DNA of 34,202 bases from an uncultured Armatimonadota bacterium (GTDB lineage: Bacteria; Armatimonadota; Fimbriimonadia; Fimbriimonadales; GBS-DC), in the NCBI GenBank assembly GCA_937139515.1, contig CAKZQI010000061.1, positions 1 through 34,202 of the forward strand, given 5' to 3'. Made by a program: the position numbers and the translations under genes. Positions 7,954 to 31,321 of the stretch are shown one piece after another. The notes beneath the pieces are model-generated. The model saw nothing but the letters and a program-made list of their open reading frames with translations. It ran no database searches and had not been told where the DNA came from. Each line of letters begins with the position of its first letter. The first letter of the stretch is position 1.

Positions 7954-8892
7954 ATGAGCCGAAACGACCGCTCAACCAGTCGACGCGATTTCTTGCGTGA
8001 GGGACTGCGCTCGCTGGTACGCACGGGTTTTGGGGGCATTTTTGAGCGATTGGAATCGATGGGCGAGATGATGGAGCGCAGTGGGGGCGCTCAGCCCATC
8101 CCCATCACGCCCGTTCTAAGCTGCGAGACACGCTCGCTCCACTCCCTGTTTGAAGCAGGCACACTCACTCTGGAGAACCTGCCCACCTTGTTGCACGAGC
8201 TGGAGGTGCCGGGCGTGAGCCTCAGCGACCGCCACCTGCCCAACTTCCACCCACGCACGCTGGAGAACCTCCGTGAGACACTCGTACGAGGGGGGTTGAC
8301 GATTACGGGGCTGATGGTGCATACGCCCATCGACATCCACGACGAAGCGAACCTCAGTCGGCGTATGGACGATTGTATTGAACGGCTCCAGTGTGCGCTG
8401 ATATTGGGCGCACCCGTCGTGCGCTTCCATCTGGGCGGAAGCATGAACGAGCGCGAGGACGACACTGTTCACTTGGAGCGGGCGGGGCTGTTCCTGCAAC
8501 GGCTTTTGCCAGAGGCGCGTAAACGGCGCGTGCGCGTCGTGCTGGAGAACCGCGATGGCGTCGCCCACCGCGCCGAGAACCTGCTCAGCCTCGTGCGCAG
8601 TCTGGACACGCGCTGGGTGGGCGTCTGTTTGGACTTCGGAAACGGCAACCCCGACCGCCTGTACGACTCGTGCCGACTGTTAGCTCCCTACGCCTATCAT
8701 GTCCACGCTAAGAGCCGAGCGTTTGACCCTCGCGGCGAGGAGAGCCAGATTGAGTACGGGCGTATGCTGAGCTACCTGCGCCTTGCAGGCTACAACGGCG
8801 CAATTTCTATTGAATACATGGGCGAAGACGACCCGATAGAGGGCATTCGCAAGACACGCGACCTCATCCGACGCTACTGGCGCGCCTATTGA
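7954..8892 (+). CDS. TIM-barrel sugar phosphate isomerase/epimerase family protein
   Basis: 312 aa. It belongs to the AP endonuclease 2/xylose isomerase-like TIM-barrel group. Barrel motifs with likely metal ligands appear in order: VVLENRDG (Glu), VCLDFGNGN (Asp), YHVHAKSRAFD (His) and AISIEYMGED (Glu). The N-terminus has SRRDFLREG, which resembles a twin-arginine motif, but the following segment (~18-30) is only weakly hydrophobic, so export is doubtful. The reaction is not predictable; relatives isomerise or epimerise sugars, inosose and similar compounds. It starts an apparent operon: the next gene, tilS, follows at once. No ribosome site is seen, but a TATAAT box sits 8 nt upstream, suggesting a leaderless message. 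Confidence 0.82.
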   Translation: MSRNDRSTSRRDFLREGLRSLVRTGFGGIFERLESMGEMMERSGGAQPIPITPVLSCETRSLHSLFEAGTLTLENLPTLLHELEVPGVSLSDRHLPNFHPRTLENLRETLVRGGLTITGLMVHTPIDIHDEANLSRRMDDCIERLQCALILGAPVVRFHLGGSMNEREDDTVHLERAGLFLQRLLPEARKRRVRVVLENRDGVAHRAENLLSLVRSLDTRWVGVCLDFGNGNPDRLYDSCRLLAPYAYHVHAKSRAFDPRGEESQIEYGRMLSYLRLAGYNGAISIEYMGEDDPIEGIRKTRDLIRRYWRAY

Positions 8893-8906
8893 GGGGGGAT
8901 GCCCCG

Positions 8907-10304
8907 TTGCAAGAGGTTCTGCAGACCGTGCGAATCACGCTGAGCGAACGCTCCATGCTTCCCCCCGAAGGAGGCATCGTGATTGTTGCCTACTCAGGGG
9001 GCGCCGACTCCACTGCCCTGCTCCATCTCCTTACCCAACTGCAAGCGGAGTTCTCCATCTGCGTGCATGCCGGGCACTTGCACCACGGGATGCGCCCCGA
9101 AGCCGACGCCGATGTCGCCGTGTGCCAAGAGGTTTGTGAGATGCTGGGCGTGCCTCTGCGTGTGGAGCGAGTCAATGTACCCCAGTTGGCGAAAAAACAT
9201 GGGCTGAGCCTAGAGGAGGCAGGACGCAGCGCACGCTATGCCTTCTTAGAGCGTCTGGCAGACCAGCTGAACGCCGCGGCTATCGCCACCGCACACACCC
9301 GCGACGACCAGATTGAGACCATCCTCATCAACTTGCTTCGGGGGACGGGACCGCGCGGGCTGTGCGGAATGCCCTACCAGCGAGGGCGTATCATCCGACC
9401 CGCCTTAGACCTCACCCGCGAGCAAACCCACGCTTATTGCGCCCACCATCGCCTGCCCACCGTGTTTGATAGCACGAATTTAGACCCCCACCAATTGCGC
9501 CGACGCATACGCGCCGAGCTGGTGCCCCTCCTGCGCGGACTGATGCCCGCCTTTGACCGACACCTGCTCCACCTTGCCGACATCATAGAGAACGAGGAGT
9601 CATGGTGGGACGCCTTTATGCGCGATTTGCTCCACACGCTGGACGAGGAGAAGATACCACTCCGCGTGTTCACGCAGTTCCACCCGGCGGTTCAGCGTCG
9701 GCTCCTTAGGGAGTGGCTCCGCCCGATACTGGGCGCGCTCCAACTACCCTCGTTTGAGATCCTAGAGGGCATCCGCCGAAGCGCGATTTGGGGCGAACCC
9801 AGCTCGTGGCAACTGAGCGAGGAGCTGCGCATGGTGGTGACGCTTGAGGCGCTCACCTTGCGCCACGACACCGAACCAACCCACGCTGAACCATATGCCT
9901 ACCCCGTGTTGATTGGCAATCCGCTGATTGTGCCCGAAGTGGGCATGTGGCTGGAAAGCCAAATCATCGAGGGCAACTCCCTTTCACCTATGCCGTCAGG
10001 GGAATGGGAGGCGGTGATGGACGCCGATGCCCTCGTCGGTTCGCTGACGGTGCGACCGTGGCGACCGGGCGACCGCTTCCAACCGCTGGGCATGACCGAG
10101 AGCAAGAAGGTGAGCCGAATCTATATTGATCGCAAACTGCCCCTTGCCCAGCGCGCGCTTCATCCCCTGCTGTGCGACGAGGCAGGTGTGGTGTGGATTC
10201 CCACCTACACGATTTCCGAACGCGCGCGGGTCAGCCCGAACACCCGACGCATCCTGCGCGTTGCGTTCCATAGAAACGCATTGACGCCCGACTCGTCAGA
10301 CTAA
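8907..10304 (+). CDS. tilS: tRNA(Ile)-lysidine synthase
   Basis: 465 aa from the chosen start. It attaches lysine to C34 of the CAU-anticodon tRNA-Ile, switching its specificity from Met to Ile; essential and cytoplasmic. The PP-loop ATP site VAYSGGADSTALLHLL (~28-43) is followed by HLHHGMR, TAHTRDDQIETILINLLRGTG and GLCGMPYQRGRIIRPAL, all family signatures. The C-terminal TilS domain holds VRPWRPGDRFQPLGM and KKVSRIYIDRKLP. TTG at 8907 is preferred because GAGGGGGG lies 8 nt upstream; a TTG at 8889 overlapping the previous stop, or ATG at 8955, are alternatives. It is coupled to the isomerase gene upstream and followed 28 nt later by the sigma factor. Confidence 0.95.
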   Translation: MQEVLQTVRITLSERSMLPPEGGIVIVAYSGGADSTALLHLLTQLQAEFSICVHAGHLHHGMRPEADADVAVCQEVCEMLGVPLRVERVNVPQLAKKHGLSLEEAGRSARYAFLERLADQLNAAAIATAHTRDDQIETILINLLRGTGPRGLCGMPYQRGRIIRPALDLTREQTHAYCAHHRLPTVFDSTNLDPHQLRRRIRAELVPLLRGLMPAFDRHLLHLADIIENEESWWDAFMRDLLHTLDEEKIPLRVFTQFHPAVQRRLLREWLRPILGALQLPSFEILEGIRRSAIWGEPSSWQLSEELRMVVTLEALTLRHDTEPTHAEPYAYPVLIGNPLIVPEVGMWLESQIIEGNSLSPMPSGEWEAVMDADALVGSLTVRPWRPGDRFQPLGMTESKKVSRIYIDRKLPLAQRALHPLLCDEAGVVWIPTYTISERARVSPNTRRILRVAFHRNALTPDSSD

Positions 10305-10332
10305 CGGTATGGAACCTGTAGGAGCGCTAACG

Positions 10333-10941
10333 ATGGACGACTTGCTCGGGGGCTACACCACGCACACACTCAACGATGAGCAGCTGGTGACACGCGCTCG
10401 CGAGGGCGACACCGAGGCGATGGAGGAGCTGTTCCAGCGGTACCGCCAGCCCCTGTTCCGAATCGTGTACCGCTCGGTGCGCAATCAGGACGAGGCAGAA
10501 GATATCGTGCAGGATGTGTTCCTCAAGGCGTTTGAACGACTCCACCTATTCAAAGAGCGGAGCCAGTTCAGCACTTGGCTGATACGAATTGCGATGAACC
10601 TATGCACTGACCGAGCGCGCCAGAGCCAGCGACGGCAGGCGCTCCTCCAACGGGAAGCCGACCATAAACTGGCGTGGATGACCCACCCTCATCCACCCGA
10701 CCCTGAGGAAGTCGTCCAGCAGAATGTGTTCCACGAGGTGTTCTACAAGGCGCTGAACCAACTGCCCGAGCCTCAGCGTCAACTAATCCTGATGCGCGAT
10801 ATCGAGCAAATGGAATATGAGCAGATTGCCGAGATTTTAAAAACGACCGTCGGCGGGGTCAAACTGCGCGTGATGCGTGCCCGCCGTGCGCTCAAAATTC
10901 AACTGGAGCCTCTGCTCCGTGCGATAGGTGAGATTGAATGA
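10333..10941 (+). CDS. ECF-type RNA polymerase sigma factor
   Basis: 202 aa. Region sigma-2 (~25-105) shows REGDTEAMEELFQRYRQPLF, the core-binding DEAEDIVQDVFLKAFERL and the -10-reading FSTWLIRIAMNLCTDRARQ. Region sigma-4 (~135-190) shows LPEPQRQLILMRDIEQMEYE and a helix-turn-helix in EQIAEILKTTVGGVKLRVMRARRAL. There is no region 1.1 or 3, typical of extracytoplasmic-function sigmas of the SigE/SigW sort. The ATG at 10333 has AGGAG 8 nt upstream; the in-frame ATG at 10309 lacks one. The gene overlaps the anti-sigma gene by ATGA, so the two are translationally coupled, the standard arrangement for a sigma held inactive by its partner at the membrane. Confidence 0.95.
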   Translation: MDDLLGGYTTHTLNDEQLVTRAREGDTEAMEELFQRYRQPLFRIVYRSVRNQDEAEDIVQDVFLKAFERLHLFKERSQFSTWLIRIAMNLCTDRARQSQRRQALLQREADHKLAWMTHPHPPDPEEVVQQNVFHEVFYKALNQLPEPQRQLILMRDIEQMEYEQIAEILKTTVGGVKLRVMRARRALKIQLEPLLRAIGEIE

Positions 10942-11705
10942 AGAACCCTTGCGAGCAGTTTGTGGAGTGGTTAGAGACGGAATCGGGCGAGCTCCCGCCC
11001 TCCTTGAGGGCACATCTGGATCGCTGTGTACACTGCCAGCATGAGTATGCCTTGCACAGCGCATACCAAAAAGCGGTTCAAGCAGTGCGCTCAGAGCCAG
11101 TGCCTGCGACCCAAGTGCAGTGGAGCCAGATTGCCCAACGGCTCAAGGCGCCCCAAGCGCGCCCACGCTGGGCTTGGCGAGGGGTGTGGGCGCCTGCGCT
11201 GGCGTTCGGAGCGATGGCAGGGTTGGGCATCCTGTTCTGGCTCACCCCACGCAACCACCCCGAACTGGCTCGGCTGGAGCAAACAAATCCCAAGCCCTTT
11301 TCGGTAGGAACAACAAGCACACAATCGACCGATACTCCCCTGTCCAGCGATGGGAGCGTCTTGCCTATGCCCCCGCCAACTTACAGCGACTCGGTAGTCC
11401 CCTTTTCGGGGTCAGTGGAGGAGCCTGCTGAACCCTCCCAACGAGCGACAACTTCTACCCGTGAGTTGAAGAGCGAGCCTTCCCCGCACCGTAGAGAGAT
11501 GGCGATGGCTTCCCCAGAGGGGGCTACTTCCTTCGCGAGGAATGGCGCACCCGATTTGCGCAATATCAATCCAACATTTCAGCCCCTTGAGATGGAACCC
11601 ATCGTGCCCCAAGGGGGCGAAAATGCCGATTATCTCTCTGTAAACTACAACGAAGCGAGCCAAACGGAGGCAACCCCAAGCGATGCAATCATCTGTTCTT
11701 TTTAG
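10938..11705 (+). CDS. Membrane anti-sigma factor with zinc-binding (ZAS-like) N-terminus
   Basis: 255 aa. The N-terminal ~40 residues carry the H-x3-C-x2-C zinc anti-sigma motif (H26, C30, C33 in LRAHLDRCVHCQHEY). One transmembrane segment at ~83-102 (VWAPALAFGAMAGLGILFW) places the N-terminus in the cytoplasm and a Ser/Thr/Pro-rich, probably unstructured, 150-residue tail outside. It would sequester the sigma factor encoded just upstream (4-nt overlap). The outer tail is where regulated proteolysis or ligand sensing would act. The last 23 bases overlap the start of the HtrA-like gene at 11683, so all three are likely made together. Confidence 0.88.
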   Translation: MKNPCEQFVEWLETESGELPPSLRAHLDRCVHCQHEYALHSAYQKAVQAVRSEPVPATQVQWSQIAQRLKAPQARPRWAWRGVWAPALAFGAMAGLGILFWLTPRNHPELARLEQTNPKPFSVGTTSTQSTDTPLSSDGSVLPMPPPTYSDSVVPFSGSVEEPAEPSQRATTSTRELKSEPSPHRREMAMASPEGATSFARNGAPDLRNINPTFQPLEMEPIVPQGGENADYLSVNYNEASQTEATPSDAIICSF

Positions 11706-12669
11706 AGTGATAGCCATCTTGATTGGCATCTTAGGATACGGCTTGCTGGGGGCACAGACCCCTTCGGTTTTAGACCAAGCGGCGCGCGAGGTGAACACGG
11801 TGGTAGACCGTGCGCTCCCTGCGGTGGTCACCATCGAGAGCCTCTATGGAGGCAACCGCTCGGTGCGCAGTAGCGGTTTCATTGTTGACCCAGCAGGTTG
11901 GGTCGTCTGCTCCTTTGAGGGTATTCAAGGGGCGCGTGCCGTGCGGGTACTTCTCAGTGATGGGCGGATTAGCCCTGCCCAGTTGGTGGGAGCGGATGCC
12001 ATCACCGGGATTGCACTCTTGCGCCTGACCGAGTTGGGCGACCTGCCGAGCCTGCGCTGGGGCGATGCGAACCGTGTGCCCGTCGGCGCCACCGTCATTC
12101 TGATAGGCAATCGGGGCGGGTTGCCAGGCAGTGTCACTGTCGGCACGCTGGGGGGCAAAGATCGGGTGGGTATTCGCCCCCAGAACCAGCGGGTTATCCT
12201 GTTGCTCCAGTTCAACGGCGCGGTCGGCTCGGGCGAACCGGGCGCACCTCTGCTGGACACGCGTGGGCAAGTCATCGGCGTTATCATCGGCGCACTGAGC
12301 AGTGTGGAAGGGATGCCTGCTGGTGGGGTCGCTGTGACGGGTTTCGCCGTGCCCTCGTCAATCGCCCAGCGCGTGGTAAGCGACCTGCGCACCAAGGGGC
12401 GTGCTGAGCATGCGTGGCTCGGAGCGGACTATCAAGGACTGTCGGGCAGTGTGATTGTTCGGCGCGTTGCACCCAACAGCCCTGCCCAGCAAGCAGGGCT
12501 GATGCCGGGCGACCTCATCACAGGCTTCAACGGTCAACCGATACGCAGTGCTTCCGACCTCACCCGCGCCCTCTATATGGCGCGCCCGAACCAGCAGGTG
12601 GAACTGCTCATCCAACGCGAGGGGCAACCGCTCAAGCTGACCGTGCAGATGGGCGTTCAGTCGCTGTAG
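11683..12669 (+). CDS. HtrA/DegS-like PDZ protein with all catalytic residues replaced (pseudo-protease)
   Basis: 328 aa. A signal peptide or anchor at ~5-24 (VLFRVIAILIGILGYGLLG) leads into a trypsin-fold domain (~35-215) clearly of HtrA type: SSGFIVDPAGWVV, VRVLLSDGR, GADAITGIALLRL, GDANRVPVGATVILIGN and GEPGAPLLDTRGQVIGV. A PDZ domain (~243-325) includes VRRVAPNSPAQQAGLMPGD and FNGQPIRSASDL. In line with DegP/DegS, the catalytic His (NNHVV) is E79, the Asp (DPLTDLALL) is G109 and the Ser (GNSGGP) is P186, so it should not cleave peptides. Genes of this family next to an ECF sigma and its anti-sigma normally act as sensor proteases. Here it may only bind peptides or shield the anti-sigma. 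Fold call sure; loss of activity inferred from alignment by eye. Confidence 0.88.
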   Translation: MQSSVLFRVIAILIGILGYGLLGAQTPSVLDQAAREVNTVVDRALPAVVTIESLYGGNRSVRSSGFIVDPAGWVVCSFEGIQGARAVRVLLSDGRISPAQLVGADAITGIALLRLTELGDLPSLRWGDANRVPVGATVILIGNRGGLPGSVTVGTLGGKDRVGIRPQNQRVILLLQFNGAVGSGEPGAPLLDTRGQVIGVIIGALSSVEGMPAGGVAVTGFAVPSSIAQRVVSDLRTKGRAEHAWLGADYQGLSGSVIVRRVAPNSPAQQAGLMPGDLITGFNGQPIRSASDLTRALYMARPNQQVELLIQREGQPLKLTVQMGVQSL

Positions 12670-14462: not shown

Positions 14463-14797
14463 GAATCGCCACCGAGATACTGGACAAGTTCCCTGAGCTG
14501 AATGAGTCTCAGCGCGAAATCGTGGGGCACATCGAAGGACCTCTGCTCGTGGTCGCGGGTCCAGGCTCTGGCAAGACCTACTGTCTGGTGCTTCGCACCC
14601 TGAACCTGCTCCTATTGAAAGAGGCACAGCCCCGACAAGTTGTGCTCTGCACCTTCACCGAAAAAGCCGCGCTTGAGATGCGCCACCGACGCCGTATCCA
14701 AGCCTGCGAGTTCCACATCAAGACGCCCCCCGAACCGAAAATCTGCAAAGAGTGTGACCTACGCACCCTTTGCCGAACAGAAGGTATTATTCAATAA
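14459..14797 (+). pseudogene. Internally deleted UvrD/PcrA-like helicase-nuclease (N-terminus joined to C-terminal Cys cluster)
   Basis: 112 aa. Residues 1-~76 are the start of a superfamily 1A helicase: LNESQREIVGHIEGPLLVVA (Q motif), Walker A GPGSGKT (34-40) and motif Ia TFTEKAALEMR (65-75). Residues ~80-112 then read FHIKTPPEPKICKECDLRTL followed by CRTEGII. That is the far C-terminal end of such proteins when they carry a RecB/Cas4-like nuclease with an iron-sulphur Cys cluster (C96, C99, C105). Several hundred residues, including the DEAD-like box, motifs III-VI and the nuclease core, are missing, yet the frame is kept. It overlaps radC by 4 nt and ends 23 nt before mod. It is probably a non-functional deletion remnant. 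An assembly collapse is possible. Confidence 0.7.
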
Positions 14798-14820
14798 CAT
14801 CACCTCAGGAGGCACCTGCG

Positions 14821-16854
14821 ATGGCGAAGATAGAAATCACGAAGACCGAGCTGGTTTGGCCCGGCAAGTACAACGAGGATGGCACGCTCAAGGAGGTGCC
14901 CCGCGTCAGCCTACCGTTCCAAGTGATCGAGCGGGTCAACGAGAGCCGTGCCACCCGCGAAGCCCGCAGGAGCCAGACCCCCTCGCTGTTTGACATCTAC
15001 GAAGGCAACGAGGGCGACACCTTCGAAGAGGGATGGCGCAACAAACTCATCTGGGGCGATAACCTGCTGGTGATGAGCTCCCTGCTGGAAAAGTTCGCAG
15101 GCAAAATCGACCTCATCTACATCGACCCGCCGTTTGCAACGGGAGCGGATTTTTCGTTTACAGCTACTATTGGGGAAGAGGATGAGGAGGTGAAGAAGGA
15201 GCAGTCCATTATTGAGGAGAAGGCATACCGAGATACTTGGGGGGGAGGGCTTGGAACATACTTGCAAATGATGTATGAACGCTTAGTTCTTATTCGCGAG
15301 TTATTAAGCGATCAAGGAAGTTTGTATGTCCATTGTGATTATAGAGTAAACTCACATATTAGATTAATTCTGGATGAAGTATTCGGAGAAAAACAAATGA
15401 TTAACCAGATAATTTGGCAAAAAGTAAGATCTTCAAAAGCACAAAGCAAATCATTTGGAAATGTTTCTGATATTATTTTGTTTTATTCCAAAAGTACTAA
15501 CTCAATATTTAACAGAACATATGTACCTCTCAATCCAGCGCGATTAAGAACACACTATAAGTACATCGAAGAGGGTACAGGTAGGCGGTATCAGTTATGT
15601 GACTTTACCCAGAAGGGACCTGGTCCTGCAAGGAGGTTTGGGGAAATGGGATGGCTTGAACCTCCCCCGGGCAAGCACTGGATTTGGACTCAGGAAAAAA
15701 TCGACCAAGCAATGAAAGAAGGGAGAATAGTCTTCACTTCTGGAAAAATGCCTCGTCTCAAAAGATATTTAGATGAAGTTCAGGGCAATCCAATTGAGGA
15801 TATCTGGACAGACATCGCCCCCATAAACTCTATGGCTTCAGAACGAGTTGACTACGCTACCCAAAAACCAGAAGCACTGCTGGAACGAATAATACTTGCG
15901 TCTTCTAATCCTGGTTCCCTTGTTGCCGACTTCTTCTGTGGTTCGGGCACCACGCTCGCCGTCGCCGAGGAGTTGGGGCGTCGCTGGATTGGGTGCGACC
16001 TCTCGCGCTGGGCTATCCATGTGACACGCAAACGACTGCTGGACATTCCCAACTGCAAGCCGTTTGAAGTCCTCAACCTCGGCAAGTACGAGCGCCAGTA
16101 CTGGCAAGGCGTCACCTTCAGCAACTCCCAGAACAAGACACCGAGCGTGCAGGCGCTCTACGAGTATCTCGCCTTCATCCTGAAGCTGTACGGCGCACAG
16201 CCCGTGCCCGGCGTGACCCACCTACACGGCAAGAAGGGCAAGGCGATGGTGCATATCGGCGCGGTGGACGCTCCTGTCACCATCGACGAGATTATGCAGG
16301 CGCTGGACGAGTGCGTGTCGCTCAAACAGACCGAACTGCATGTGCTCGGCTGGGAATGGGAGATGGGGCTGGCAGGTCCCAACGAAAAGAAGGGCGGTAT
16401 CCTGCACGACACCGCCAAGCAAAAAGGCGTCAAGCTCGTGCTCCTGCAAATCCCTCGCGAGGTGATGGAACAACAAGCCGTCGACAAAAACGACATCAAG
16501 TTCTACGAGCTGGCATATTTCGATGTGGGGATAACCCATCCCAAGCCCCGAACGGTTCAGCTGGAGTTGACCGACTTTGCCTCCCCGAACATGCACGAGC
16601 TTGTCCCCGAAGAGGTTCGTTGCAAAATCAGCAAGTGGTCGGACTACATCGACTACTGGGCGGTGGACTGGAACTTCCAGAACGACACCTTTGTACAGGG
16701 GTGGGTGGCGTACCGCACGCGCAAGCGGCGCACGCTCCCGCTCCAGTCCGACCCGCACACTTACGACCAGCCGGGCACCTATCGCATCCTCGTCAAGGTC
16801 ATCGACATCTTCGGCAACGACACCTCGCGGGTGTTTGAAGTGGAGGTGAAGTAG
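14821..16854 (+). CDS. mod: Type III-like site-specific adenine DNA methyltransferase (Mod), mosaic
   Basis: 677 aa. Beta-class amino-methyltransferase with motif IV IDPPF at 101-105, motif X TQKPEALLERII at 347-358 and the SAM-binding motif I FFCGSGTTLA at 371-380. The region between, where the target-recognition domain lies in this class, is encoded by unusually AT-rich DNA (~15150-15930; hand-counted lines 27-32% GC against 53-65% in lines on either side). The C-terminal ~60 residues (TYDQPGTYRILVKVIDIFGN) look like a PKD/Ig-like beta fold. The ATG at 14821 has AGGAGG nine bases upstream. The stop lies 2 nt before the Res start, so they form one operon and presumably one complex: Mod provides sequence recognition and N6-adenine methylation that protects host sites. 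Confidence 0.92.
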   Translation: MAKIEITKTELVWPGKYNEDGTLKEVPRVSLPFQVIERVNESRATREARRSQTPSLFDIYEGNEGDTFEEGWRNKLIWGDNLLVMSSLLEKFAGKIDLIYIDPPFATGADFSFTATIGEEDEEVKKEQSIIEEKAYRDTWGGGLGTYLQMMYERLVLIRELLSDQGSLYVHCDYRVNSHIRLILDEVFGEKQMINQIIWQKVRSSKAQSKSFGNVSDIILFYSKSTNSIFNRTYVPLNPARLRTHYKYIEEGTGRRYQLCDFTQKGPGPARRFGEMGWLEPPPGKHWIWTQEKIDQAMKEGRIVFTSGKMPRLKRYLDEVQGNPIEDIWTDIAPINSMASERVDYATQKPEALLERIILASSNPGSLVADFFCGSGTTLAVAEELGRRWIGCDLSRWAIHVTRKRLLDIPNCKPFEVLNLGKYERQYWQGVTFSNSQNKTPSVQALYEYLAFILKLYGAQPVPGVTHLHGKKGKAMVHIGAVDAPVTIDEIMQALDECVSLKQTELHVLGWEWEMGLAGPNEKKGGILHDTAKQKGVKLVLLQIPREVMEQQAVDKNDIKFYELAYFDVGITHPKPRTVQLELTDFASPNMHELVPEEVRCKISKWSDYIDYWAVDWNFQNDTFVQGWVAYRTRKRRTLPLQSDPHTYDQPGTYRILVKVIDIFGNDTSRVFEVEVK

Positions 16855-16856
16855 CG

Positions 16857-19685
16857 GTGGCGAAAGCAGTCATCAACTACGACAAGGACCTGCCCGAAGT
16901 GCCCGACCGCCGTCCTTGGGAGAAGCCGACCCAGCATCTGGTGAAGGACGAATCGGCCCCGACGGGGTGGAGCGTCGCTGAAGGTCGTCGACCGAGTCAG
17001 CTTCTGCTCGTGCCCCAAATTCGTGAGCAGGTGGACTGTTGGCGCGAACAGGGCTACCCCGGCGCCTCAGAGGTCACGCAACGGCTCTTCCAGTACTGGT
17101 TTGAGGAAGACCACGAGGTGCGGGGCTTCGCTGTGCCCTTCCGATACTACTTCTGCCAGCGCGAAGCCATCGAGACGCTCGTGTGGCTGGTGGAGATAGC
17201 CCAAGTGCGCGATGTGCAAGCGCTGATAGAGACGCAAGCGCCCCTGTTCCCAAAAGACCTCTTTGATAAGAACATCGAGTTTGAAACACGGCTCTTGAAT
17301 GGCAATCCCCAACGAATCGTGCGACGCTATGTGCCCGAGTTAGACAAAGTGGGCGAGCAGGAGCTGCCCCCCGAAAACCTGCGTCGGTTCGCCTTCAAGA
17401 TGGCGACTGGCTCTGGCAAGACTTGGGTGATGGCGATGGCGGTGGTGTGGTCTTATTTTCATCGGCGCCAGGTAGAGGGGTCGGACTTGGCGCCCAACTT
17501 CCTGATTATCGCCCCGAATGTGATTGTGTACCAGCGATTGGAGCGGGACTTCAATTCGAACCACATCTTTCGTGAACTTCCCCTGATACCGCCAGAGTGG
17601 CGCTCGGCTTTCAATCTCAAGGTCATCCTGCGTGGTGAGGCGACCGAGCCTGACCCTTCAGGCAACCTCTTCCTGACGAACATCCAACAGATTTACGAAT
17701 CGCGCGAGCAAGACTGGACACCGATGAACGCTGTCGAGGCTCTGCTGGGCAGAAAGCCTCAGAAAGACCTCGCCTCTTCCAACCAGCGCTCTATGTTGGA
17801 GCGGGTGAAGTCGTTGAAGGAGCTGGTGGTCATCAACGATGAGGCGCACCATGTCCACGAGACGGAGCTGAAATGGAGCCAAGCTTTGCTTAGCATTCAC
17901 AGCACCTTGTCGAAGGGGCTGGCTCTGTGGCTGGACTTCTCGGCAACGCCCAAAGACCAGAACGGGATGTACTTCCCGTGGACCGTATGCGACTATCCGC
18001 TGGCGCAGGCGGTGGAAGACCGCATCGTCAAAGCACCCCTCATCGTCACGAAAGAAGATGAGCCTGCACACCCGCACCAAGACCCAGAGCAGGTCACCAA
18101 AGAGAACCTCGGGGAGAAGTACGGCTTCTGGCTTCGTGCGGCGGTGCAACGCTGGAAAGAGCATTACGCGGTCTACAAGGAGCTCGGTGTGCGCCCCATC
18201 CTGTTCATCATGGTGGAGAAGAACGCCTACGCCGACGCCATCGGGGAGTACCTTGTCAAAACGAAAGAGTTCGGCTTCAAAGCATCGGAAGTGCTCGTCA
18301 TCCACACCGATAGCACGGGCGAGGTCTCCAAAGGGGATTTAGAGAAGGCACGCGCCGCCGCACGGGATGTCGACCGTGCCGATAGCAAGGTGAAGGTCAT
18401 CGTGAGCGTGTTAATGCTTCGCGAGGGGTGGGATGTGCGTAATGTGACCGTGGTACTGGGTCTGCGCCCGTTCACGGCGAAGGCGGAAATCCTGCCTGAG
18501 CAGGTCATCGGGCGCGGGCTTCGGCTGATGTCCCCAATCAGCCCAGACCGCACCCAGACGCTGGAGGTGTTGGGAACGCCCAAACTGCTGGAGACCCTGC
18601 GTACCCAACTGGAGACCGAGGGCGTAGGTATTGCCACCACACGGAGCGACCCACTTGCTCCCGTCGTCGTAGCACCCGAACAGGGGCGGTTGCAGTACGA
18701 CATCGCCATCCCGCTCACCAAACCCAGCCTCACCTACAACTTTCGTAAACTAAGCGAACTGAACATCAGCCAGCTCGAACCTATCTTTGAGCAAGAGGAG
18801 CTGGCGGAGTCGTACCGTGTCAGGCTGCAACTTGAATTCGCTACAACCGAGACCGAAGTCCACCAAGCAGAGATTGCAGGAAGCGAACCCCCGCCCTCGC
18901 AAGAACTGCTTGCGCGCATCACGAATGACCTTATGGCGTGTGCGAGGCTCCCGAACCGATTCGCAGAGCTGTACCCCCTCGTGCGCCAGTACATCCGAGA
19001 GCGCTGTTTCGGCAGGGAGGTCGACTTGGACGATGAGCGTGTGCGCTCCCACTTAGCCCGGCTCGAAATCCGAGAGGGCATCGCAAAATATCTTGCGCGT
19101 AAGATTGCCGAGCTGACCATGGAACGCTGTGCACTCGAGTTCGAGAGGGCGGACTTCAAGTTGTCTCAGACCCAGCCGTTCAGCTGGCGTCGGAACCTGC
19201 CCCCGCTGGTGGCGACTAAGACCGTCTTTAACTTTGTAGCCACTTACAACGACTTCGAGCGCCAGTTTGCGGAGTTCCTTGACCAAGCGCGTGATGTGGT
19301 GCGCTTTGCTTCACTGGGCACGACCCAGCAGGGCGACTCGGGCACTCTGTTCCGCGTGGACTATCTAAAGCCCAGCGGAGCCATCGGTTTCTATCATCCC
19401 GACTGTGTGGTCGTTCAGCAGACCGACGAAGGCGAAGTGAACTGGATTGTCGAGACGAAGGGGCGCGTCTGGGAAGGAACAGAGGCAAAAGATGATGCGG
19501 TGCGCACCTGGTGTGAGCGTATCCGCTCGGCAACAGGCAACAGATGGGAATATGTGCGTGTTGACCAGGACAAGTTCGAGGCTTTCTCTCGTGCTCAACG
19601 AGGGAAGAGGTTTGCAGCCCTGATTGCGTATTTGAACCATCCAACGGGTCTCTACTCCCACGAGGAGAACGATCAGACACCCTAA
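16857..19685 (+). CDS. res: Type III-like restriction endonuclease subunit (Res; helicase plus PD-(D/E)XK nuclease)
   Basis: 942 aa. Superfamily 2 helicase motor: Walker A MATGSGKTWVMAMA (~182-195), DEAH box VVINDEAHH (324-332), motif III FSATP, and the second RecA lobe with VIVSVLMLREGWDVRNV and EQVIGRGLRL. The C-terminal nuclease (~844-880) shows HPDCVVV then IVETKGRVWEG, giving the D...(E)xK pattern. The length matches type III Res and the related BPTD_3080-type endonucleases. The GTG start follows the mod stop by 2 nt. It translocates on DNA and cuts unmethylated sites with Mod. Its stop overlaps by 4 nt the stop of the convergent GH140-like gene. No frameshift or missing motif was seen, so it is probably functional. 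Confidence 0.93.
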   Translation: MAKAVINYDKDLPEVPDRRPWEKPTQHLVKDESAPTGWSVAEGRRPSQLLLVPQIREQVDCWREQGYPGASEVTQRLFQYWFEEDHEVRGFAVPFRYYFCQREAIETLVWLVEIAQVRDVQALIETQAPLFPKDLFDKNIEFETRLLNGNPQRIVRRYVPELDKVGEQELPPENLRRFAFKMATGSGKTWVMAMAVVWSYFHRRQVEGSDLAPNFLIIAPNVIVYQRLERDFNSNHIFRELPLIPPEWRSAFNLKVILRGEATEPDPSGNLFLTNIQQIYESREQDWTPMNAVEALLGRKPQKDLASSNQRSMLERVKSLKELVVINDEAHHVHETELKWSQALLSIHSTLSKGLALWLDFSATPKDQNGMYFPWTVCDYPLAQAVEDRIVKAPLIVTKEDEPAHPHQDPEQVTKENLGEKYGFWLRAAVQRWKEHYAVYKELGVRPILFIMVEKNAYADAIGEYLVKTKEFGFKASEVLVIHTDSTGEVSKGDLEKARAAARDVDRADSKVKVIVSVLMLREGWDVRNVTVVLGLRPFTAKAEILPEQVIGRGLRLMSPISPDRTQTLEVLGTPKLLETLRTQLETEGVGIATTRSDPLAPVVVAPEQGRLQYDIAIPLTKPSLTYNFRKLSELNISQLEPIFEQEELAESYRVRLQLEFATTETEVHQAEIAGSEPPPSQELLARITNDLMACARLPNRFAELYPLVRQYIRERCFGREVDLDDERVRSHLARLEIREGIAKYLARKIAELTMERCALEFERADFKLSQTQPFSWRRNLPPLVATKTVFNFVATYNDFERQFAEFLDQARDVVRFASLGTTQQGDSGTLFRVDYLKPSGAIGFYHPDCVVVQQTDEGEVNWIVETKGRVWEGTEAKDDAVRTWCERIRSATGNRWEYVRVDQDKFEAFSRAQRGKRFAALIAYLNHPTGLYSHEENDQTP

Positions 19686-26248: not shown

Positions 26249-28669
26249 TCACTGCGGCTTTATTTCCCCGCTGGGCAAGTTCGGTGGGAAGCGTGTGCCC
26301 TCTGACTGGTTCCAAAGGTTGCCCTTGCCTGTGGTGTCCCAGAGTAAATCCACTGGCGGGACGATGCCGAAGCTCCTCAACCGCTCATCGGGGTCTTTAC
26401 CGTTATCGCGCAAGATGTTGTTGTAGATGCGATTGTGATCCGAGTTCGGCTCCACATCCAGCGGGATTGGCTCAGGGAAAATGAGCCGTAGCCCGATGGT
26501 CATAATCCCGAAAGTGCCGTTGCCAACGATTTCGTTCTCGTAGACCTCGGTGTAGTCCGCCGCAAGAAGCATAATGCCCGTGCCCTTCAGCACCCGCGAG
26601 ACTATCGCCTCAGGGTCGGCAAAGTTGGGCGTGTTGTTGTTGATGACCCGATTGCGCCGAACGATGCAGTACTCCTGCACCTTTGACGGATTGAACGGCA
26701 ACAGAAACACGAGGATGCCCCCCGTGTTGTTATGGACATAGTTGTCCTCCACAAGGGCGTTGATACAGTTCTCAATTTCTATCCCCGTTACATTCTCAAA
26801 CGCTTCGTTGTGGCGCACGATGATGTTGCGCGACTGTCCCACATAAATCCCAGCGTCGCGGGTGCCAGAGACTTTGCAATATTCCACCAGCACGCCATCG
26901 CACTCTATCGGGTAGACGCCATACAACCCCGTATTGTGGATGACCAGGTTGCGATAGACCACATTGCGTGCCCGATGCACCACTACGCCGTTGCCCTGAT
27001 AGTTGCGTATCTCCAAGTTTTGCACTTTGAAGTCGTGTCCTAACCCAGAGATAGCGTCTGGCAGGAGGTTTTGCCCGTCCAGCACGGGGCGCTTGCCGTC
27101 TTGGATGACCCCCTCAATCGTCACGCCGTGATGGATGACCAGCACATTCTCGTGGTAGGTGCCTGGATAGATGCGCACGACACCGTTGCGCCCCGCCTTG
27201 TCCACCGCCTCTTGGATGCTCTCGCCGGGGCGCACCTCCACCACGCGTCCGACAGGCTGTTCAGCACGGCGTTGACGATTGCGCAGGACGGGTGGCTCCA
27301 CTCGGCTGGGGGGTTGGCTCTGTTGGGAGGCGAGTTGCAGGTTCGGGCGTGAAGCGTTGGAAGCCGTTGATGAGGGCACTTGGGCACGACGGCTGGCGCG
27401 CTCCAGCTCTGCGGTGGGGATGTTTCGTGTGCGTGCCTCACGAACGCGGCGCAGTTCGGGGCTATCAATGTTGAGCTTCGTCGGCTCGTGGGGCACCATC
27501 GGCTTCACGACGGGCAATCCCGACGGCACGCGCTCCGGGATAGGCGGCAGTGCGCTCTCATCGGTCAGCGCCAGCAGGAATGCAATCAGGTCTTCCTTCT
27601 CCTGCGGGGTGAGCTGGAACTTGCGAATCTTGTCATCTTGGAGAGGCACTTCCAATCCGCGCCCACGCCCACCGCCACCTGCATAGAAGTCCAAAACCTC
27701 TTCCAAGGTTGCGAACGCGCCGTTATGCATATAGGGTGCGGTGAGCGCCACATTCCGCAAGGTGGGGATTTTGAAGGCGCCGTTGGGTCCACCCCCGCGC
27801 CCCGGCTCAGCACCTTCTTTGTGGGTATCAGGCGGTGCGCCCGGCACTGGGGGCACACCAATCACCTTGAAGTCGCGGTTGGCAAAAGTCGGCAGACCGT
27901 GGCACTCATTACAGCGGGTCTTGGGCGAGAGGAACAGTTTCAGCCCTCGCTTCTCTTGGGGGCTAAGTGCGCTCCCGTCGCCATTAGCGTAGCGGTCATA
28001 GCGCGAGTTGAAGCTCACCAGAGTCCGCTGGAACGCTGCGAGCGCACGCGTCACATTTTGGAAGGTCACTCCAGAGCCGTCCTTCCCGCCGAAGGCGCGG
28101 TCAAATCGCTCACGGTATTCGGGGATGGCTTTCAGCTCGGCGACAAGTTCTGCTGGGTCGGCGTTCACCTCTTCGGGCGTCGTGATGACCATACGCGCTT
28201 GGGCTTCCAGATGTTCGGCGCGTCCGTCCCAGAACTGGCGGTGGTTGTACACCGTGTTCCAGAGGCTTGGGGCGCCACGGGTCAGTTCAATCCCGCCTTG
28301 ACGCTCGGTGCCTGCGCCTTTCGCCCCGCGCCCCAGCGAACGGGGAAGCCCATCCGAAAAGCCCAAGTTCGGATGATGACAGTGGGCACACGAGAGCGTG
28401 TTGTCGTCCGAAAGCACAGGGTCATAGAATAGGAGCCTGCCCAGTTCTACCTTTTCGGGCGTGGTGGGATTGTCCTCAGGTTGGACAATCGGGGGATACG
28501 CTTTTTGAAGCCCTGTTTCGGGTTCCTCATCGGGAATTGGCGGGGGCGCGGGCACTAATGCCCCACCCTCAAGGCGCATCCCGACATAGTTGCGTTGTTC
28601 ACTCAACGAAGCACTCACCAGCAGAGCTGGCAACGCCACTGTTGCAAGCAAAAACATCCACCGTTTCAT
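26249..28669 (-). CDS. Fusion: di-heme cytochrome c peroxidase (CCP/MauG-like) plus SO_2930-like parallel beta-helix
   Basis: 806 aa. Signal peptide at ~1-22 (WMFLLATVALPALLVSA). Residues ~65-375 are a CCP/MauG-type di-heme domain: LGRLLFYDPVLSDDNTLSCAH, first heme C94-x2-C97-H98, RGAPSLWNTVYNHRQFWDGRA, second heme C253-x2-C256-H257, and NVALTAPYMHNGAFATLEE with a candidate axial Met314. A Ser/Pro/Gln/Arg-rich linker (~380-475) follows. Residues ~476-780 form a right-handed beta-helix: GESIQEAVDKAG, YGVYPIECDGVLVEYCKVSG, DAGIYVGQSRNIIVRHNEAF, GIEIENCINALVEDNYV, NTGGILVF and GTGIMLLAADYTEVYENEI. That half resembles the family typified by Shewanella SO_2930, whose members are encoded beside a separate di-heme cytochrome. 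The start at 28669 has GGAGGT four bases upstream. Located in the periplasm or on the outer surface. Confidence 0.9.
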   Translation of the reverse strand: MKRWMFLLATVALPALLVSASLSEQRNYVGMRLEGGALVPAPPPIPDEEPETGLQKAYPPIVQPEDNPTTPEKVELGRLLFYDPVLSDDNTLSCAHCHHPNLGFSDGLPRSLGRGAKGAGTERQGGIELTRGAPSLWNTVYNHRQFWDGRAEHLEAQARMVITTPEEVNADPAELVAELKAIPEYRERFDRAFGGKDGSGVTFQNVTRALAAFQRTLVSFNSRYDRYANGDGSALSPQEKRGLKLFLSPKTRCNECHGLPTFANRDFKVIGVPPVPGAPPDTHKEGAEPGRGGGPNGAFKIPTLRNVALTAPYMHNGAFATLEEVLDFYAGGGGRGRGLEVPLQDDKIRKFQLTPQEKEDLIAFLLALTDESALPPIPERVPSGLPVVKPMVPHEPTKLNIDSPELRRVREARTRNIPTAELERASRRAQVPSSTASNASRPNLQLASQQSQPPSRVEPPVLRNRQRRAEQPVGRVVEVRPGESIQEAVDKAGRNGVVRIYPGTYHENVLVIHHGVTIEGVIQDGKRPVLDGQNLLPDAISGLGHDFKVQNLEIRNYQGNGVVVHRARNVVYRNLVIHNTGLYGVYPIECDGVLVEYCKVSGTRDAGIYVGQSRNIIVRHNEAFENVTGIEIENCINALVEDNYVHNNTGGILVFLLPFNPSKVQEYCIVRRNRVINNNTPNFADPEAIVSRVLKGTGIMLLAADYTEVYENEIVGNGTFGIMTIGLRLIFPEPIPLDVEPNSDHNRIYNNILRDNGKDPDERLRSFGIVPPVDLLWDTTGKGNLWNQSEGTRFPPNLPSGEIKPQ

Positions 28670-28755
28670 AGCGACCTCCACCCCAGGATTCTACTGACTG
28701 TTCAGGATTCCTGCTTGTGGGGTCGATTCGTCCCCGAATCCTTATGCCGTCCACA

Positions 28756-31008
28756 TCAATCGGATTTACTTTCTTGCCCGTGGTTTGCCCCGTTGTACTC
28801 GGTCTTGCTTTCAAAGAGGGCAAGTTGAGCGACAGTGTTTGCGGTACAAGCACCATTCGGGTCGGTACGCTCTTTGTACAGTGTGTCGAACGCTTTGAGC
28901 GCGCTCTCAAACCAGCTGTAGCTGACTTCGCTGTGCTCTGCCAGACAGCTTGCCGAACGCAAAAGCTCGCCTACGAAGTGAAGAAAGACGAGGTTGCGCT
29001 GGCTGTAGCCCCCGTGCTTTCCGACGAGCTCGGTCGCCCGATTGAGGGCGTCTGCAGGCGACTCTGGAACAGAGGCGTGAGGTTGAAGCATTTTTTGGCA
29101 TACGATGACCAAATCCATATCCAAAGCCTGCTTATTACGAATATGTGGATTCACTCGGTACTCGCTCTGCACTGCGAAGTAGTCTGCGATATGGAAACCG
29201 CTACCGATTACAGCCTTGAAAACGACCCACCAAGCCTCAGGCTTCGTGTGATGGAAAGTAAAGATGAGCTTCCCCTCATCTTTCAAAACACGGTGACACT
29301 CCCTGAACACGGAGCGAAGGAGCTCAAGATACTGCTCTTCACCCTTGTCCATTCCTTTGTTGACGATAGCCTCCTGTTCCGTTGGAACCAGCTCGGTTGT
29401 GAAGTGTGGACAGGATGCCAAACGAGATAGCCACACATAGAAGAAATTGGACAGTTCCGAGTAATGGATACTATCATAGTAAGGGGGGTCTGTGATGACG
29501 AAGTCCACCGACTTGTCAGGAATTTCGGGCAGGCGCGAGGAGTCTCGGCAGAAGAGCAACGCCCCCCTGCTCGTCTCTGATAGCTCATGGAAAGAGCGCA
29601 CAAAGGCGGCTGATATATGTTCCTGCTTCATCGGTATCGTCACCACCTGTCCCGATGCGTCTTTGTAGCGCTCGTAGGGCATTTGTGCATAACGCTTTGC
29701 GTTCTCGTAGCGTTTATAGCAGTTCACGAAGGTTCCTGCACCCTCTTCAGAAGCTCCCCAAACAGCATTTTCAACAGGGGTAGTGGTGAGTGGCAGAGCA
29801 TGATAGTTGAAGAGGTGATGGAGCTTACGATTAGGATAGTTATAGGGCGTCATCATATTGTTGTACTCAAGCATGTTGGAAAGAATCGTGTAAAAAGCGT
29901 TGCGGTATTCCTCCTCTTCTATCTCTCGTATCGCCTCTATGAGGTAGTTTAGGGCAAGTATTTGGCGTGCGTTGAATACATCTCGGTAGTGGGTGTAGCC
30001 GTGCTGAATCCAGCGTCGTGACGAAGAACCCATCGGTATCGCCTGATGCGGGATCACCAGATGAGCCTTTTTAGACTCGTACTCGTCCTCTACTTTTCTC
30101 AGTAGGTCACGGTCCTCGATATCAAGTGCCTTGTAAAGACGCGCCTGACAGCAAGAACACCAATACTCAATCGCAACGGGTCTATCTGAGAGCCTCGCAC
30201 CGTCTCGTAGGGTGTCAAGAAGGTTTTGGGGAGTCTCACAACTTGGGCATCGGTACTTACCTTGGTCGTAGGTTCCTTCGTAGGGGGCGAAATGATGTTT
30301 GCATTCAGGACAGTGCGCTTCCCCTTCACCTCCCCATAGGAATATCGACTTGCAGTCTGGACAGAATACCGTTGCAGGGTTGAGTGGAGAGAGCGGGCGG
30401 TTGCGACTGTGCCCTTCGTTGAGCAAAGTGCGCTTGTAGAGTGGCACGGCGTGATTGCAGAGCGCGCAGGGTATGGCACGAATCCAGAAAACATAGAGCG
30501 TATCGGCGGAATTTCCACAGTGTACACAGCGCGTTCGGTACAACGATTTTATGCGCTCCCCAGCAGTGCGTTCTAAGACCAAGAAGTAGTTTCGGAGCTT
30601 CTCCAAGTCGATCGGCTTCAGTGTCTCTCGCACTACCCAGTACGCTACAGGATTCAAATCACAACCGATTACTTTTGCACCCAAGCGATTCGCTTCCACA
30701 AGGGTAGTGCCTCCACCCATAAAGGGGTCGAGAATAATCAGGTCGTTCAAACTATGCATGGAAAAATACGCTGACTTAGAAGAGAGATTTCCAGCGGCGT
30801 CGGTCTGGAAAAGGCTTTCCCGGAGTTCAGGACGCGTTGCCAACAGAATGATTGAACGGAAGAGTGTGCCCGGTCGCCTCGCCCACCACTTATGAAGCGA
30901 ATAGATAGGGCGATAATGCTGACGCTTGCCAGTCTCGTCCTGAGCCAGTTTGCTGATGAACTGCTCGGTGCTTAGGTCGCCGACGAAACGCGGGGCAGTT
31001 TCACTCAT
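28756..31008 (-). CDS. DUF1156-like adenine-specific DNA methylase with zinc ribbons
   Basis: 750 aa. HKWWARRPGTLFRSIIL (~39-55) is the DUF1156 signature. SAM-binding motif I is DPFMGGGTTLVEANRLGA (94-111) and catalytic motif IV is TDPPYYDSIHYSE (506-518). Between them are three Cys-pair zinc ribbons (C161/C164 with C181/C184; C216/C219 with C233/C236; C254/C257 with C284/C286/C287), probably for DNA contact. The ATG at 31006-31008 overlaps the end of the small upstream gene by 8 nt (ATGAGTGA), which argues for translational coupling and against the longer frame starting at 31242. GC is ~47-50% in hand-counted lines against 73% in the MoxR gene, so it is likely acquired. Predicted N6-adenine methylation; recognition site unknown. 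Confidence 0.87.
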   Translation of the reverse strand: MSETAPRFVGDLSTEQFISKLAQDETGKRQHYRPIYSLHKWWARRPGTLFRSIILLATRPELRESLFQTDAAGNLSSKSAYFSMHSLNDLIILDPFMGGGTTLVEANRLGAKVIGCDLNPVAYWVVRETLKPIDLEKLRNYFLVLERTAGERIKSLYRTRCVHCGNSADTLYVFWIRAIPCALCNHAVPLYKRTLLNEGHSRNRPLSPLNPATVFCPDCKSIFLWGGEGEAHCPECKHHFAPYEGTYDQGKYRCPSCETPQNLLDTLRDGARLSDRPVAIEYWCSCCQARLYKALDIEDRDLLRKVEDEYESKKAHLVIPHQAIPMGSSSRRWIQHGYTHYRDVFNARQILALNYLIEAIREIEEEEYRNAFYTILSNMLEYNNMMTPYNYPNRKLHHLFNYHALPLTTTPVENAVWGASEEGAGTFVNCYKRYENAKRYAQMPYERYKDASGQVVTIPMKQEHISAAFVRSFHELSETSRGALLFCRDSSRLPEIPDKSVDFVITDPPYYDSIHYSELSNFFYVWLSRLASCPHFTTELVPTEQEAIVNKGMDKGEEQYLELLRSVFRECHRVLKDEGKLIFTFHHTKPEAWWVVFKAVIGSGFHIADYFAVQSEYRVNPHIRNKQALDMDLVIVCQKMLQPHASVPESPADALNRATELVGKHGGYSQRNLVFLHFVGELLRSASCLAEHSEVSYSWFESALKAFDTLYKERTDPNGACTANTVAQLALFESKTEYNGANHGQESKSD

Positions 31009-31180
31009 CTGGCTCCCAGAATGGACACTCCGTGTCGGGTTGGGGTACTTTGTCATCTCCTCCCACACGTACACGGTAGAGTATCTCTGCAATCTGAATC
31101 GGCTTGTACATCGCAACTCTCTGCTTTGCGATGAACTGGTCGAGCCGTTCCCTTGCCTGCCTAAGGGCATCAGTGTCCAT
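31001..31180 (-). pseudogene. Short fragment resembling the N-terminus of HaeII-family restriction endonucleases
   Basis: 59 aa. RQARERLDQFIAKQRVAMYK followed by PIQIAEILYRVR matches my memory of the opening of HaeII-family endonucleases (a helix with a Lys/Arg pattern, then YKPIQIAEILYxxR). Those are ~300+ aa, whereas here the frame ends 20 residues later with PQPDTECPFWEPDE. The next gene, the methylase, starts inside its last codons. Either this is a truncated endonuclease leaving an orphan methylase, or a genuine small protein whose helical motif helps the methylase. TATCCT lies 10 nt upstream. The coding frame is well supported by the overlap and motif; family identity is moderate. Confidence 0.55.
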
Positions 31181-31190
31181 CTCGCACAGT

Positions 31191-31196
31191 AGGATA
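31191..31196 (-). promoter_or_regulatory. Putative -10 hexamer TATCCT, near-leaderless start at 31180
   Basis: On the minus strand GGTATCCT ends 10 nt before the ATG at 31180 (gap ACTGTGCGAG). It is the same octamer as at 12685 and 1731. The 31181-31321 gap otherwise shows only an A/T-run on the MoxR 3' side (TTTTTTT on plus at about 31287) and no gene. Confidence 0.4.
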
Positions 31197-31321
31197 CCCT
31201 ACCAATACTATCTGTAGGATGTTCACGACCGTGCTGTACCACAAGTTGATTACTGCAAAGCGCACTAGCAGACCAGCAGATGGTTTTTTTGTTTTCAAAT
31301 AGAGACTTTCCTGCACAAGCC

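Follow-up and report, generated by a model that had tools for sequence, protein, structure and literature searches.

The stretch of DNA considered here (the window) comprises 34,202 nucleotides of one contig (C61) from a 2.69-Mb genome of an uncultured Armatimonadota bacterium, whose nearest named relatives are metagenome-assembled genomes (MAGs) of Fimbriimonadales, and its forward strand carries at 10309-12669 three open reading frames (ORFs) that overlap successively by 4 and 23 nt. The initial annotation had read these as a cassette encoding an extracytoplasmic function (ECF) sigma factor, an anti-sigma factor and an HtrA-type protein, and the ORFs, along with the Pfam domains of the first and third products, bear this out. 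The first gene (10309..10941, with a second possible in-frame ATG at 10333) encodes a sigma factor of 210 residues that matches Sigma70_r2 (PF04542, 3e-19) and Sigma70_r4_2 (PF08281, 3e-16), scores above the cut-off of TIGR02937 and, as expected for an ECF pair, has sigma-2 and sigma-4 domains without sigma-3 and is co-encoded with a membrane anti-sigma factor. The latter (10938..11705, + strand, 255 residues), whose gene shares its first 4 nt with the end of the sigma gene, consists of an H-x3-C-x2-C domain, a single transmembrane segment (hydropathy 1.71 over 19 residues), a variable linker of ~110 residues and a conserved C-terminal tail; it has no match in Pfam and weak matches to anti-sigma models in NCBIfam (4e-4 and 1e-3). 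The third gene (11683..12669, + strand) encodes an HtrA-like protein of 328 residues with a putative signal peptide, a trypsin-fold domain and one PDZ domain, its N-terminus resembling a cleavable signal peptide (AxA|QQ in relatives).

The HtrA-like protein keeps the fold of its family and lacks the catalytic residues. It matches Trypsin_2 (PF13365, 9e-19) and a C-terminal PDZ domain (PF13180, 1e-16; 12412..12648, PDZ_2 residues 246-322, with the carboxylate-loop motif AWLGADY), its AlphaFold model has a pLDDT of 84.5 (15 sequences) and Foldseek matches of this model are DegQ, DegP, DegS and AlgW. An HMMER alignment to solved DegP and MucD chains places E79 (11917..11919), G109 (12007..12009) and P186 (12238..12240) at the catalytic His, Asp and Ser sites, respectively, so that both halves of the original reading, a retained HtrA fold with PDZ and a missing His-Asp-Ser triad, are confirmed. 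An intact triad in a shifted position was not seen, and the motifs flanking the three sites align without shift. The protein falls below the curated NCBIfam cut-offs for TIGR02037 (175 bits versus 416) and DegS (119 versus 423). Because the triad of an active HtrA/Do protease is absent, cleavage of the anti-sigma factor by this protein would not be expected. It might still have enzymatic activity at a site that is unusual or has shifted, or bind a metal through the acidic residue at the His site, given that this site is D or E in 43/45 triad-less HtrAs, that position 185 is E in 16 and that MamO has gained metal binding (PMC4794232). We regard this as highly improbable since no alternative Ser/His/Asp set is conserved and the residue at the Ser site has drifted between P, Q and S inside one family.

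Searches across the phylum Armatimonadota found the cassette in 17/18 genomes of the source family (f1, Fimbriimonadales; in G007 the contig stops within htrA) and in three other families. All members of the source family are triad-less, with E or D at the His site, G or N at the Asp site and P, Q or S at the Ser site. The f19 cassettes (10 genomes) have D-N-S at these positions, and those of f13, which occur in many genera and twice in some genomes, have E-N-S or D-N-S, with one HtrA at a contig start showing S-N-N. The single f33 cassette (L206, G227:C131) encodes beside its ECF gene an HtrA with N-D-S, which possibly represents an intermediate stage of triad loss. Two alphaproteobacterial matches from outside the phylum have an intact H-D-S triad. 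In a first tree of 91 rows, the 26 triad-less HtrAs then included formed one clade with support 100/100, which was 100/99 when 12 residues either side of every triad site were masked, and a tree of 117 rows, in which the triad regions were masked, unites all 45 in one clade (100/98), ruling out that the clade is an artefact of shared changes in the triad loops. The branching order within it is poorly resolved. The Ser site still reads S in f19 and almost all f13 members, and P, Q or S in the source family, so that Ser was probably the last of the three to be lost, with drift at the site afterwards. Pairwise dN/dS values are 0.04-0.21 among triad-less HtrAs, compared with 0.10 for two pairs of active paralogues, and the dead HtrA is therefore maintained. 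A mutation confined to a single strain, which comparison with orthologues could have revealed, is thus ruled out by triad loss across the whole family, close orthologues included, and the family would appear to have lost its cutting residues long ago and to have been kept since under purifying selection.

Triad loss is also linked to the sigma switch. An ECF gene lies immediately upstream of 42/45 triad-less HtrAs, the other three being at most 600 nt away from the end of a contig, and upstream of 5/72 active HtrAs, a sample that consists of top-scoring matches rather than a random draw. Where at least 1.3 kb of upstream sequence is present, the figures are 31/31 and 4/51. Together with the single clade and the purifying selection, this means that triad loss is conserved next to the ECF/anti-sigma pair, and the status of the protein as a pseudo-protease, its conservation and its link to this pair are all strongly supported. 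The observation is thus real, conserved and better founded than a first reading of one sequence could know. One way to account for it is that the pseudo-HtrA is made in response to stress rather than sensing it, and serves in the periplasm as a chaperone or holdase that is co-regulated through the sigma operon. HtrA proteins can have chaperone activity, no regulatory meaning is known for rseA-htrA-tatB, the operon that contains htrA in Mycobacterium tuberculosis (PMC10027907), and active HtrAs are likewise found in ECF cassettes here (C283, for example). This explanation nevertheless seems unlikely, leaving unaccounted for both the occurrence of triad-less HtrAs only beside ECF genes and the conserved tail of the anti-sigma factor after a variable linker.

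This tail is new with respect to the initial annotation, which made no mention of a conserved anti-sigma C-terminus (an invariant SF, with W or Y in f13). In the source family, the linker from the transmembrane segment to the C-terminus is hypervariable (mean pairwise identity 0.20, versus 0.44 for the zinc domain), and within the tail a box, ENADYLSVN here (11619..11645, + strand) and EYLPVRYG in relatives, reaches 0.50 across the family. The protein ends in Ser-Phe (codons at 11697..11702, + strand), the proposed PDZ ligand, as do 17/17 orthologues. These codons lie where htrA overlaps, and they vary synonymously (TCT/TCG/TCA and TTT/TTC, followed by TAG or TAA as stop), while the htrA frame at the same site changes its residues (SVLFR to SVRFN, STRSN or CIHSN). 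Changes that are synonymous in the anti-sigma frame only rule out that SF is forced by the overlapping htrA start, and the selection is therefore on the anti-sigma C-terminus. Aromatic ends, first noticed in the source family, were afterwards found in f13, where 15/16 anti-sigma factors end in W or Y (SAY, DTY, EVY, TPY, SPY, HPW, RPW, KAW, TAW and QPW). Overall, an aromatic tail is present in 32/44 anti-sigma factors of triad-less cassettes versus 1/31 controls from f1 and f13 genomes. Taking one copy per genus or cassette gives 15/18. Many anti-sigma factors also have a loose box before the C-terminus (Y-[VIL], then Pro a few residues later), although this pattern was drawn up after the tails had been seen, matches 3/31 controls and misses the tail encoded in the window, making it weak evidence.

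The free hydrophobic or aromatic C-terminal residue of a PDZ ligand is thus found in f1 and f13 (not f19), and such a C-terminus would suit a PDZ domain, lending indirect support to the suggestion that the pseudo-HtrA binds or shields the anti-sigma factor. The PDZ carboxylate-loop glycine (Gly247) is invariant in 45/45 triad-less HtrAs, and the positions equivalent to DegP Gln200 and Thr176 are Q in 45/45 and S/T in 44/45 (the DegP activation cluster being taken from PMC11642142). HtrA PDZ domains are known to bind the YxF/WVF C-termini of outer-membrane proteins (OMPs) (PMC8545111), and BamA of the source genome ends in SVGQVF (-VF). Another PDZ protein, such as the DegS-like HtrA encoded on contig C151, RseP or a tail-specific protease, might instead use the tail as ligand or degron, with the pseudo-HtrA acting only as a competitor or being otherwise employed. 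The genome does encode further PDZ proteins, and one anti-sigma factor that accompanies an active-group, DegP-like HtrA (L196) ends in FGF. We consider this very unlikely, as the aromatic tail tracks the triad-less cassettes and the anti-sigma factors of active cassettes end mostly in Arg.

We estimate at about one in two the probability that the secreted dead HtrA acts in an envelope-stress switch as a PDZ peptide receptor, with the anti-sigma tail held and shielded by it until competing OMP tails bring about release. In the calm state, the PDZ domain, perhaps together with the degenerate substrate cleft, would grip the anti-sigma factor by its C-terminal tail, in which the aromatic carboxylate comes last, and the bound pseudo-HtrA would shield the periplasmic part of the anti-sigma factor from site-1 proteolysis. 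Under stress, unfolded OMPs with similar aromatic C-termini would accumulate and compete for the PDZ domain, and the released tail would expose the anti-sigma factor to destruction by an active DegS-like protease and RseP, freeing the sigma factor. A stricter version, a displacement sensor in which the PDZ domain is occupied at rest by the OMP-like tail and freed by unfolded-OMP C-termini, the HtrA signalling by binding alone, is put forward tentatively. We infer tail-PDZ binding, shielding, OMP-tail competition and the identity of the cutting protease alike. The HtrA-like protein is likely to have a non-proteolytic role; the particular mechanism by PDZ and tail is a hypothesis to which one family (f19) is a known exception.

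The initial annotation had set this cassette against the DegS paradigm, in which the HtrA cuts the anti-sigma factor. This contrast stands as far as the triad-less protein itself is concerned and has to be qualified for the pathway as a whole, because the genome encodes RseP as well as a DegS-like HtrA (C151) that is active, has a single PDZ domain and appears to be anchored in the membrane, and these could still allow proteolysis. The anti-sigma factor may thus still be destroyed in this way, with the pseudo-HtrA acting alongside as RseB does. A second ECF-anti-sigma-HtrA cassette is present on contig C283 (G000; L061 and L073), with an intact H-D-S triad and an anti-sigma factor ending in GLRPR. 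The same genome encodes a trypsin-like protein of 293 residues (L067, G000:C131) that scores under the Trypsin_2 cut-off and has no clear triad motifs. The existence of active paralogues, and the finding that in some genomes of genus g4 the counterpart of the C283 cassette lies directly downstream of the triad-less one, would be in accord with the pseudo-HtrA serving as a regulatory subunit: it would either enter mixed trimers with an active HtrA or activate that protease, which then cuts the anti-sigma factor. There is a precedent in MamO, a pseudo-protease that is required, without a triad, for MamE proteolysis (PMC4794232). In the source genome, however, the active cassette is not adjacent, and the anti-sigma tail would be unexplained unless the mixed oligomer binds it too, which makes such a subunit quite improbable.

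Several points weigh against the PDZ-receptor model. The L3 arginine, through which DegP and DegS link occupancy of the PDZ domain to the protease domain, is kept in only 35/45 triad-less HtrAs, all 10 losses being in f13. Despite having the same cassette, the f19 anti-sigma factors (10 genomes) end in -VE or -IE, the sole f33 cassette has an anti-sigma factor ending in -LDL and one f13 copy ends in -GAL, which rules out the aromatic tail as a universal feature. The tail could serve a different PDZ protein (active HtrA or RseP). Finally, all genomes belong to a single phylum, most of them being MAGs, and the families are related, so that Fisher values overstate independence.

As for the surroundings of the cassette, a tilS-like gene (8889..10304, + strand), named from its sequence rather than by a family search, is a conserved upstream neighbour in the source family, and the order tilS-sigma-anti-htrA is repeated in most relatives where the contig permits. 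A PADLOC search gave no match. Elsewhere in the window, genes for an N6/N4 DNA methylase and a ResIII helicase lie side by side (14770-19685) and resemble a type III restriction-modification system. On the reverse strand, the product of 26249-28681 combines a MauG-like domain of the di-haem cytochrome c peroxidase type with a NosD/beta-helix region, and 28756-31242 encodes a large protein in which the matches to PF01555 (N6_N4_Mtase) are split.

Regulated proteolysis by HtrA proteins is the textbook route for sensing misfolded OMPs. If the model outlined here is true, an HtrA clade that retains the PDZ domain and a position next to a sigma switch shows that the sensing part can be reused without cutting, and the extreme C-terminus of the anti-sigma factor offers a short, testable ligand. 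In the literature searched (an open-access subset), no description was found of a triad-less HtrA family beside an ECF switch, and four known systems invite comparison. DegS-RseA-RpoE in E. coli and AlgW-MucA-AlgU in P. aeruginosa similarly combine a one-PDZ HtrA fold, a membrane anti-sigma factor and an ECF sigma factor, with aromatic C-termini as PDZ ligands. Unlike in these systems, the HtrA described here is dead, its gene belongs to the sigma operon, it is probably secreted rather than anchored, and it is the anti-sigma factor itself that carries the aromatic C-terminus. RseB/MucB, which guards the anti-sigma factor against the site-1 protease (PMC8545111), would be a functional parallel in the proposed role as a soluble, periplasmic, non-catalytic binder and shield, but it has an unrelated fold and senses lipids, whereas a peptide ligand is proposed here. 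Pfam and NCBIfam searches of the cassette proteins gave no match to the RseB/MucB family; another ECF cassette of the source genome (L072, G000:C37) has a third gene whose product is possibly RseB/MucB-like, by eye only. Mycobacterium sigE with rseA-htrA-tatB shares the order sigma, anti-sigma, HtrA, although the HtrA there is reported to be a serine protease (PMC10027907). MamO of magnetotactic bacteria, finally, is an HtrA-family protein whose triad is likewise gone and which retains a non-catalytic role, but it has no link to a sigma/anti-sigma pair and contributes to magnetite formation through metal binding and activation of MamE (PMC4794232).
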